A stretch of 39,084 nucleotides of DNA from Siphonobacter sp. BAB-5405 (lineage in GTDB: Bacteria; Bacteroidota; Bacteroidia; Cytophagales; Spirosomataceae), in assembly GCF_002872335.1 (NCBI RefSeq), contig NZ_NJAG01000032.1, positions 7 through 39,090 of the forward strand. The letters run 5' to 3'. Within the stretch, counting starts at the first letter, position 1, and each line of letters opens with the position of its first letter. Below are positions 24,419-26,064 of this stretch, one piece after another. A model generated the notes under the pieces. That model saw only the letters and a program-made list of their open reading frames with translations, did no database searches and was not told the DNA's origin. The translations under genes were made by a program, and so were the position numbers.

Positions 24419-24426
24419 TACTTTTG
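24419..24426 (+). promoter_or_regulatory. Putative -7 box of the nrtR promoter (TACTTTTG)
   Basis: TACTTTTG matches TAnnTTTG and lies only 12 bases before the ATG at 24439. The resulting leader would be under 10 bases, or the gene starts at the second ATG (24445). An upstream frame opening at a TTG inside this box is therefore unlikely to be the start. Confidence 0.5.
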
Positions 24427-24438
24427 TGGACTACTATC

Positions 24439-25143
24439 ATGCGTATGTCCGAAGCTTTTCAGTATCCCCAACAGGGAATTCGTTTAACGGTAGATGCCGT
24501 GGTGTTTGGATACCACTCGGATCGGTTACAGGTTCTGTTGATTCGTCGCAAGTATGCCCCTTTTGAAGGACAGTGGGCCTTACCGGGCGGTTTCGTTGCG
24601 GAGCCAGAGAGCCTGGAACAGGCCGTTGAACGCGAACTTTCGGAGGAAACGGGCCTGAAAATCAACTACCTCGAACAACTCTTCAGCTTCGGCGAACCCC
24701 GCCGGGACCCCCGGTTTCGGGTGGTTTCGATTGCCTATATGGCCATTATTCGTTCGGACAACATGCCGCTACAAGCTTCGACGGATGCCACGGACGCCCA
24801 GTGGTTCGATACGCAGGAACTGCCCCCGCTGGCCTTCGATCACGCTCAGATTCTGGAGAAAGCCATCAGCCGACTCCGCTCCAAACTGCGGTATCAGCCG
24901 ATTGGCTTCGACCTGCTGCCGGAAAAGTTTTTATTCAGTGATCTGGAACGGCTCTACAGTACCATCCTCAATCAACCGCTGGATCGGCGGAATTTTCGCA
25001 AGAAGATGCTCAGCTTTGGTATCCTTGAAGAGTTATCCACCAAAGTTTCCGACGGCCGGGGCCGCCCCGCTTCGCTGTATCGCTTCGATCTGGAACGCTA
25101 TCAGGCCCTGCAACACGAAAATTTCTACTTCGAAATTCCCTAA
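24439..25143 (+). CDS. nrtR: Nudix-related transcriptional regulator NrtR
   Basis: NrtR is a repressor of NAD synthesis and salvage genes; the family senses ADP-ribose. From ATG 24439 the protein has 234 residues. An N-terminal Nudix domain (about 1-150) contains a complete Nudix box, G51-X5-E57-X7-R65-E66-L67-X-E69-E70-X-G72, so hydrolase activity may be retained; many NrtR proteins have a degenerate box. The C-terminal part (about 160-234), with RNFRKKMLSFGILEEL and DGRGRPASLYRF, is the winged helix-turn-helix typical of NrtR. The target genes follow directly: a PRPP synthetase homologue and NadV, with two palindromic operators between. This context makes the assignment strong. An alternative reading as a plain Nudix hydrolase is unlikely because of the C-terminal domain. 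Confidence 0.92.
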   Translation: MRMSEAFQYPQQGIRLTVDAVVFGYHSDRLQVLLIRRKYAPFEGQWALPGGFVAEPESLEQAVERELSEETGLKINYLEQLFSFGEPRRDPRFRVVSIAYMAIIRSDNMPLQASTDATDAQWFDTQELPPLAFDHAQILEKAISRLRSKLRYQPIGFDLLPEKFLFSDLERLYSTILNQPLDRRNFRKKMLSFGILEELSTKVSDGRGRPASLYRFDLERYQALQHENFYFEIP

Positions 25144-25149
25144 TTTCTA

Positions 25150-25172
25150 TTTTGCGTAATTTTTACACAAAA
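25150..25172. promoter_or_regulatory. NrtR operator 1 (imperfect palindrome)
   Basis: TTTTGCGTA (25150-25158) and TACACAAAA (25164-25172) are inverted repeats separated by 5 bases, matching at 8 of 9 positions. The layout of 9-5-9 is the same as in operator 2, whose centre lies 64 bases downstream (about six helical turns). TATTTTG at its left edge may be part of the promoter. That NrtR binds here is inferred from position, symmetry and family knowledge. Confidence 0.75.
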
Positions 25173-25211
25173 CTTTTTCCGATTTGGTTGCAGAATTGAT
25201 CGGACCTCTAC

Positions 25212-25238
25212 ATATTTGCGTAAAATATACGCAAATAT
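25212..25238. promoter_or_regulatory. NrtR operator 2 (perfect palindrome over the prs start codon)
   Basis: ATATTTGCGTA (25212-25222) and TACGCAAATAT (25228-25238) are perfect 11-bp inverted arms around the 5-base centre AAATA. The right arm runs into the ATG at 25237. The TACGCAAA core resembles published NrtR sites with TAC/GTA cores. Binding here would block transcription and covers the start codon. Confidence 0.82.
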
Positions 25239-26064
25239 GAAAGTCATCAATCTCGAACCCACCTTTCAGCCCTACGGCCCTGGTTTGGCTTATGAGGCGT
25301 TTACGTTCAACGGCGGCGAGCCGCACATTCGCATTCAGGAACCCGTCGCTGGAGCCGACGTTCAGGTCACTACCCGCATCCAGTCGTTCCAGGATATGGG
25401 GCTTTTACTGGTAGCCGTTGATGCCCTTCGGCGGGCGGGTGTACAAAACCTGTATTTGTTTCTTCCTTATTTTCCCGGTGCCCGTCAGGATCGTTGTACG
25501 CAGGTGGGGGAAGCCCTTACGGTGAAGATCTATGCTGATCTGATCAATGCTTTAGCGTTCAAAGAAGTACAGATTTTCGATCCGCATTCCGACGTAACGC
25601 CTGCTTTACTACAGAACGTAAAAGTCATTTCTAATCAGACGTTTGCTCAAACCTGCCTTGCTTCTCTTTCAGACTACCTACTCATTTCACCGGACGCCGG
25701 AGCTTTGAAAAAGACCGTAGTCCTGGCCCAACGTCTCGGCGTTGATTACGTGGAATGCAGCAAAAAACGCAATACCCTTACGGGTCAGCTCAGTGATGTT
25801 CGGGTATACGCGGACGATTTGCAAGGACAGACCTGCGTCGTAGTCGATGACATTTGCGACGGCGGTGCTACGTTCCTGCAACTGGCTCAGGCCCTACGCC
25901 AGCACGGAGCGGGTTCACTGGTTCTAATCGTTAGTCACGGAATCTTTAGCCGAGGCTTCACCGAGTTATCCGCCTACTACGATCAGATCTTCAGTACTGA
26001 TTCCTTCCAGACGCTTTCCAGCGACGCCCTGACCCAAATTCATCTTTCACCCGCTCTTTTCTAA
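25237..26064 (+). CDS. prs: Ribose-phosphate pyrophosphokinase (PRPP synthetase) homologue of the NAD salvage locus
   Basis: PRPP synthetase makes PRPP from ribose 5-phosphate and ATP. This 275-residue version is about 35 residues shorter than the usual housekeeping enzyme. It keeps LPYFPGARQDR (76-86, the flexible catalytic loop; canonical enzymes have FGYARQDR), FDPHSD after it, and a PRPP-binding loop VVVDDICDGGAT (about 201-212) in place of the usual DDxxDTAGT. A frame open from a TTG at 25216 would run through the operator, so ATG 25237 is preferred. The gene is 11 bases upstream of nadV. PRPP is the cosubstrate of NadV, so this is probably a dedicated paralogue; prs-nadV pairs under NrtR are known. 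The standard prs must then lie elsewhere. Confidence 0.87.
   Translation: MKVINLEPTFQPYGPGLAYEAFTFNGGEPHIRIQEPVAGADVQVTTRIQSFQDMGLLLVAVDALRRAGVQNLYLFLPYFPGARQDRCTQVGEALTVKIYADLINALAFKEVQIFDPHSDVTPALLQNVKVISNQTFAQTCLASLSDYLLISPDAGALKKTVVLAQRLGVDYVECSKKRNTLTGQLSDVRVYADDLQGQTCVVVDDICDGGATFLQLAQALRQHGAGSLVLIVSHGIFSRGFTELSAYYDQIFSTDSFQTLSSDALTQIHLSPALF

Follow-up and report, generated by a model that had tools for sequence, protein, structure and literature searches.

Paired NrtR-type operators around a predicted promoter of the prs-nadV genes in Siphonobacter, and their spacing across the Bacteroidota

Introduction

Two palindromic sites between the regulatory gene nrtR and the NAD salvage genes prs and nadV of Siphonobacter appear to frame a promoter of the Bacteroidota -33/-7 type, in which the TTTG of the predicted -7 box is also the left half of the proximal operator. 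Taken as a whole, the best explanation, and in our judgement a probable one, is that a pair of NrtR dimers would frame the prs-nadV promoter, with repression that is reinforced in a phase-dependent manner and relieved by ADP-ribose. Both palindromes would be operators of the NrtR encoded just upstream. The window is the whole stretch of DNA analysed (39,084 nucleotides). The original prediction, made from the window, had proposed the two operators; it had left out two features that are found here, the promoter candidate between the sites and an intact Nudix box in the regulator.

NrtR control of NAD genes, tandem AraR sites and one-turn steps in SusR sites are known already, and NrtR control of prs-nadV in Shewanella has reportedly been described by Rodionov 2008 and Huang 2009. 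No description of operator pairs of NAD-type NrtR in Bacteroidota, or of their spacing, was found in a part of the open literature that did not include the founding 2008 NrtR paper.

The operators at the prs-nadV locus

The locus comprises the following features, given in positions of the window.

24445-25143, + strand: nrtR, predicted repressor with a Nudix domain and an NrtR winged helix, an intact Nudix box GGFVAEPESLEQAVERELSEETG, recognition helix DRRNFRK and Arg90
25151-25171, no strand: predicted distal NrtR operator TTTGCGTAATTTTTACACAAA, 7 bases from the nrtR stop codon, predicted -72 to -52
25188-25190, + strand: candidate -33 box TTG, 24 bases before the proximal operator
25211-25218, + strand: candidate -7 box CATATTTG, its first letter off TAnnTTTG, its TTTG the left end of the proximal operator
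25215-25235, no strand: predicted proximal NrtR operator TTTGCGTAAAATATACGCAAA, predicted -8 to +13, within a perfect palindrome (25211-25239) that includes the ATG
25223, + strand: predicted transcription start inside the proximal operator, placed by the F. johnsoniae -7 numbering, with a 5' leader of about 14 nt
25237-26064, + strand: prs paralogue, PRPP synthetase-like, 275 aa
26076-27560, + strand: nadV, nicotinamide phosphoribosyltransferase

The nrtR start was set at an ATG by choice, while the mechanical list of open reading frames begins the gene at 24424 with a TTG. Two inverted repeats of common layout do lie between nrtR and prs-nadV where they had been predicted, both inside a single 93-bp intergenic gap, and the 64-base separation claimed for them is borne out by the distal and proximal 21-bp operators (64 bp start to start). 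The full layout of the distal repeat is TTTTGCGTA-ATTTT-TACACAAAA (25150-25172), with arms that differ by one mismatch. The proximal repeat is a perfect palindrome, as had been proposed, but its arms measure 12 bp (25211-25222 and 25228-25239), one pair more on each side than the 11 bp first given, so that the whole ATG (25237-25239) and its matching CAT lie inside it. The proposed overlap with the start codon holds for this longer palindrome and fails for the conserved 21-bp core, which ends one base short of the ATG.

A chance origin of the two sites is excluded by shuffling, by a genome-wide count and by matrix scores. When the pattern TTTGCGTA-N5-TACGCAAA, allowing up to 3 mismatches, was sought in shuffles of the whole window, the mean was 0.19 matches and two matches were reached in 2 of 100 shuffles; the real window holds two, with 0 and 1 mismatches. 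Throughout the 6.49-Mb genome, the only matches with at most one mismatch are the two prs-nadV sites. A scoring matrix built from relatives, whose training loci include the window's own two sites, gives the two operators 31.7 and 30.2 and the next-best position in the window 1.3. The matrix scan found no autoregulatory operator before the window nrtR (best score -14). A 2-mismatch site elsewhere in the genome (C2:8456, score 17.8), whose two long neighbours start about 370 and 640 bases away, was considered as a second target and judged to be a chance match.

Conservation within the genus was observed directly. Among six Siphonobacter genomes searched, the four that carry nadV (G000, the genome of the window, G001, G002 and G005) all have both sites, while the two with neither nadV nor an nrtR orthologue, G003 and G004, hold no pair: G003 has a single isolated match, with 1 mismatch, and G004 lacks any. 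The palindromes, whose absence upstream of prs-nadV in close relatives had been named as evidence that would count against the original prediction, are present in four of four. The distal 21-mer is identical in three of these genomes and shares 20 of 21 letters in the fourth.

The prs gene of the operon (25237-26064) is a divergent second copy, scoring 142.7 bits against TIGR01251, and a canonical prs lies elsewhere in the genome (G000:C109:157594-158505, 362.2 bits against the same model), which suggests that the salvage operon brings along a PRPP source of its own.

Operator spacing across the Bacteroidota

A strict double-site pattern, in which spacings of 41-71 bp were allowed, was run on 395 Bacteroidota genomes and matched 17, of which 14 have a spacing of 52 bp and one each 51, 50 and 64 bp, the last being the window; the reversed pattern, used as a control, had no match among the genomes listed. 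The matrix, whose training on relatives favoured no particular spacing between 20 and 110 bp, gave 82 distinct pairs on 199 loci. Seventy-three of these are spaced at 50-54 bp and four, all from Siphonobacter, at 63-64 bp, the remaining five standing at 25, 28, 29, 72 and 124 bp (one each). Thirty further loci were obtained by Prs similarity after the matrix had been fixed, with L221 and L224 left out as repeat genomes; 28 of them hold a pair at 50-55 bp, one of which repeats a known pair, and two hold a single site near prs. Pooled, the 111 distinct pairs divide into 100 at 50-55 bp (mean 52.21, SD 0.83), five at 63-64 bp and six elsewhere. The fifth 63-bp spacing separates the distal from a third site in locus L213, which also has a 54-bp pair.

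As the main pair, 63-64 bp is seen only in Siphonobacter, while other Bacteroidota with pairs space them by about five turns. The six-turn layout first described is therefore right for Siphonobacter and does not stand as a rule for the phylum. Measured against a 10.5-bp turn, 52.2 and 63-64 bp fit five and six turns, a fit that comprises one shift event and has a 29-bp exception. In a tree of 104 NrtRs, built by a short search with no bootstrap, the 50-54-bp pairs fall in three separate clades and the 63-64-bp pairs form one (SH-aLRT 100). Paired promoters are diverse, preceding prs, nadV, nrtR, an NMN adenylyltransferase-Nudix gene and a microbial PARG gene, and spacers of equal length among 39 thinned pairs are 45% identical, against 33% after shuffling.

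Counts by gene start, which omit starts less than 160 bp from a locus end and Prs hits below 45% identity, show where the pairs reside. For prs, 60 distinct starts comprise 45 with a pair at 50-54 bp, four with a pair at 63-64 bp, one with a pair at 29 bp, eight with a single site and two with none. The nrtR family (104 distinct starts) has a pair at 15, a single site at 41 and none at 48; nadV (114 distinct starts) has a pair at 6, a single site at 10 and none at 98, many nadV genes trailing prs or nrtR in a cluster. Genes for NAD salvage with paired sites are a minority trait in the Bacteroidota: a prs of the window type was found in 16 of the 395 genomes from the window's class and in 19 of 299 from the family to which G079 belongs, and nadV in 39 of 222 genomes of the window's family.

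Exceptions to the common spacing are found in L069, where the only pair is at 29 bp, and in L193, where three sites follow one another at 25 and 28 bp; additional sites occur at 72 bp (L009) and 91 bp (L211). Single sites only are present in Chitinophagaceae, in Larkinella and at several nadV promoters of Tenacibaculum. Three of five distinct Larkinella promoters have a possible decayed site 51 bp upstream, with scores below zero; if this remnant is real, about 52 bp would be the older state.

A predicted promoter between the operators

The -7 box of F. johnsoniae is given as T-12 A-11 nn T-8 T-7 T-6 G-5, with a -33 motif that is much less evident, in the available part of PMC6847099. The promoter set consists of the 70 of 82 pairs with a recognisable downstream gene (the 72- and 124-bp rows being excluded), 65 of them at 50-54 bp. 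In 53 of these 65 oriented pairs, a TA at -4 and -3 from the proximal operator completes TAnnTTTG together with the operator's own TTTG, and in 59 of the 65 a TTG stands at -28 to -25, where a -33 box would be expected. This consensus geometry is directly observed, and the transcription start is a prediction from it. All four Siphonobacter promoters have the TTG at -27. In the predicted numbering, the usual distal operator spans about -60 to -40 and that of Siphonobacter about -72 to -52; with the TTG offset kept, the additional 11-12 bp fall between the distal site and the -33 box.

A scan of 25000-25400 for sigma-70 promoters and terminators returned nothing, which for sigma-70 is expected because Bacteroidota use other boxes. 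A compensation test, relating the distal-to-TTG gap to the TTG-to-proximal gap, gave a negative relation in 39 thinned pairs, with the observed variance equalled in 10 of 10,000 permutations; misplacement of the TTG would give the same sign, and the test was not used as evidence.

Phased pair or simple occlusion

Under the preferred explanation, for which binding, repression and cooperation are predictions, an NrtR dimer on the proximal operator would block RNA polymerase, since this operator overlaps the -7 box and the start point. A distal dimer would bind that same helical face, at a distance of five turns in most paired relatives and of six in Siphonobacter, and would strengthen repression by a contact sensitive to rotational phase, made either between the dimers by DNA bending or with the polymerase. 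Such a same-face requirement is suggested by the fixed spacing, the five-turn value and the one-turn shift that keeps the distal site. Cooperation or looping between the sites, suggested in the original prediction along with a very tight switch, is plausible, and 52 bp is very short for a DNA loop. The case for rotational phase dependence is suggestive only, because the 63-64-bp pair arose once, and by our own estimate roughly a third of single shifts would end close to a whole turn.

Several observations count against a phase requirement, namely the single sites, the 29-bp pair of L069, the sites of L193 and the extra sites at 72 and 91 bp. In addition, AraR pairs mostly stand 24 bp apart start to start, which is no whole number of turns and speaks against explanation by phase, and the Siphonobacter -7 box, one letter off the consensus, counts against the best explanation as a whole.

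The closest competitor, which we regard as a serious possibility a little short of an even chance, is that the two operators occlude independently and without cooperation, the proximal one covering the -7 box and the start and the distal one the space by the -33 box, in which case the near-constant 52 bp would be set by the length of the promoter core together with a small gap. Consistent with this, the gap from the distal operator to the TTG is 4-5 bp in 56 of the 59 pairs at 50-54 bp with a TTG in range (6 of 65 being excluded), and a single site seems to be enough in several lineages. The engineered PompA of F. johnsoniae likewise places a Bacteroidota promoter between repressor operators, lacO3 and lacO1, while differing in being synthetic and using the Lac repressor (PMC6847099, available part). 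Independent occlusion, however, has no need for a precision of +-1 bp on the distal side, and the distal site of Siphonobacter, 15-16 bp from the TTG, is nevertheless kept.

A broader form of the phase-dependent explanation extends it to a "two-operator clamp" across the Bacteroidota, in which NrtR dimers on one face would hold the spacing at about 52 bp, Siphonobacter would represent a natural one-turn insertion that preserved the phase, and the repressor would destroy its inducer while supplying ribose-5-phosphate to Prs; this is put forward tentatively, as a doubtful combination. The locus is a natural setting in which to test helical phasing where a promoter has two operators, within a phylum that uses a promoter code of its own.

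The regulator, its effector and the start-codon palindrome

In a profile search the window NrtR matches PF00293 (5.3e-21) and PF21906 (4.9e-24). Against NF050029, the NCBIfam NtrR equivalog, it reaches 164.6 bits where the curated cut-off is 400, making it related to that equivalog and outside it. Among 55 NrtRs of at least 50% identity, the window included, 49 have prs or nadV beside them and the remaining 6 come from short loci.

Arg98 of S. oneidensis NrtR contacts ADP-ribose and has Gly89 as its AraR counterpart, according to the available part of PMC4666351. It was one of three ligand positions compared at which S. oneidensis NrtR and AraR differ, and Arg90 of the window aligns with it; at the other two, Tyr37 and Glu68, the window matches neither protein. 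An equivalent arginine is present in all 55 close NrtRs (window included), in all 30 more distant ones beside nadV or prs and in 5 of 13 others, and is found in none of the six NrtR-family paralogues of the window's own genome. The DNA-contacting Arg182 and Asn183 (Arg180 and Asn181 in AraR) are kept in 85 of 85 proteins, the 55 close and 30 distant prs- or nadV-linked ones. Arg90 and its distribution among NrtRs, set against the paralogues, favour ADP-ribose as the probable effector, although the five of 13 remaining control NrtRs with the arginine, like the sites of L193 for phase, leave the ligand and phase arguments slightly less clean. The proposal that NrtR-type operators control prs-nadV is supported, at the level of sequence, by the family's two domains together with Arg90 and by the occurrence of both sites in all four nadV-bearing Siphonobacter.

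In M. smegmatis and S. suis, ADP-ribose antagonises the binding of NrtR to DNA (PMC6800001, available part). By the preferred explanation, ADP-ribose from NAD breakdown would bind the Nudix domain and NrtR would release the DNA, whereupon Prs and NadV would convert ribose-5-phosphate and nicotinamide into PRPP and NMN.

The Nudix box GGFVAEPESLEQAVERELSEETG is intact in the window NrtR. In NrtR regulators of NAD metabolism the box is described as impaired, a description and no strict criterion, in the available part of PMC4666351. Of the 55 NrtRs sharing 50% identity or more (the window's own counted), 36 have the strict box and 54 have the box once N is accepted for the final G, against 2 of 49 below 50% identity. 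Position 68 is the Glu of the box in 55 of 55 close NrtRs, while among the 30 distant prs- or nadV-linked ones 25 carry Lys, as does S. oneidensis NrtR, and 5 carry Glu. Protein family and residues are read directly, and catalysis is predicted from them: with its box intact, the window NrtR may cleave ADP-ribose to AMP and ribose-5-phosphate, degrading its own inducer and so ending the signal, and, since ribose-5-phosphate is the substrate of Prs, such cleavage could feed Prs.

It is very unlikely that the regulator is a sugar-responsive paralogue of AraR/XylR type rather than an ADP-ribose-responsive NrtR. The protein has an AraR_C Pfam match, its closest solved structures by sequence are AraR of B. 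thetaiotaomicron (1.5e-47) and then S. oneidensis NrtR (5.1e-38), and NrtR-family regulators that respond to sugars are known from Bacteroidetes (available part of PMC4666351). Its gene, however, sits with prs-nadV, and a scan of eight neighbouring proteins showed no arabinose-utilisation or other sugar gene; prs-nadV is the only place in the genome with close operator matches; and the Arg98 equivalent is kept, whereas all six paralogues of the same genome lack it.

These six further paralogues lie on C163 (three), C7, C43 and C192, have neither the arginine nor the Nudix box, and are perhaps sugar regulators. One arginine may be suggested as a simple marker to distinguish ADP-ribose-sensing from sugar-sensing regulators of the NrtR family in Bacteroidota.

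That the downstream palindrome acts as an mRNA hairpin hiding the start codon is extremely unlikely: the whole palindrome, if transcribed, folds at -14.5 kcal/mol (z -6.6), but the predicted transcript begins within it and the fold is then gone (-2.5 kcal/mol, z -0.5), and relatives keep the motif while its distance from the start codon varies. Over 65 pairs the SD of this distance is 13.4 bp, or 6.6 bp once the two largest values are dropped, whereas that of the spacing is 0.7 bp.

Comparison with known systems

The NAD-type NrtRs of Shewanella oneidensis, Synechocystis, Mycobacterium smegmatis and Streptococcus suis resemble the window system in a regulator with a Nudix domain and winged helix and in NAD genes as targets. 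Unlike them, the window group has other operator letters (TTTGYGT-N7-ACRCAAA), paired operators around a predicted Bacteroidota promoter and an intact Nudix box. The Mycobacterium NrtR site is palindromic with a 7-bp inner spacer, as in the window (available part of PMC6800001).

AraR of Bacteroides thetaiotaomicron, also of the NrtR family, has tandem 21-bp semipalindromic sites before an operon, 3 bp or 42 nt apart, equal to 24 or 63 start to start. Its operator GTGT-N7-ACAC has the same geometry as the GYGT-N7-ACRC found here, and the recognition helix is nearly identical (DKRNFRK in AraR, DRRNFRK in the window). AraR differs from the window NrtR in its arabinose effector, its impaired Nudix box and a Gly in place of the ADP-ribose-contacting Arg (all from the available part of PMC4666351, except the window letters). 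SusR-like sites in Bacteroides consist of paired boxes at distances of 67 or 77 bp, which the authors interpret as six or seven helical turns along one side of the DNA, and show the same one-turn step (available part of PMC3878776); they differ in belonging to another regulator family and in being direct repeats, where the sites described here are two full palindromes.

Other loci with paired operators

Three loci of Flavobacteriaceae (L083:1632-1704, L096:485-558 and L130:1501-1573, two of them from Tenacibaculum) carry an operator pair at 52-53 bp in gene clusters. Jointly, these clusters encode a microbial PARG (PF10021), an ADP-ribosylglycohydrolase (PF03747), a NADAR protein (PF08719), an adenylosuccinate synthetase-like protein, two proteins with no Pfam match, and NadV. 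They form a candidate ADP-ribose-recycling regulon, and the shared paired operators point to ADP-ribose-processing genes in this family. At L115:1501-1571 (G307) two strong operators spaced by 50 bp stand before an NMN adenylyltransferase-Nudix gene and a divergently oriented nadV; within this 1.7-kb locus no nrtR, prs or nadV of the window type lies beside the pair.

A contig assigned to Saccharospirillaceae (Pseudomonadota; L084) carries nrtR-prs-nadV of the Bacteroidota type with a 51-bp pair, either by transfer or as a misbinned contig. Finally, in 26 of 35 nrtR-prs neighbours (for example L073:1341) the stop codon of nrtR starts within the distal operator, at offset 6, and half of a binding site is thereby encoded by the end of the regulator gene; in the four Siphonobacter the stop codon begins 10-11 bases ahead of the distal operator.
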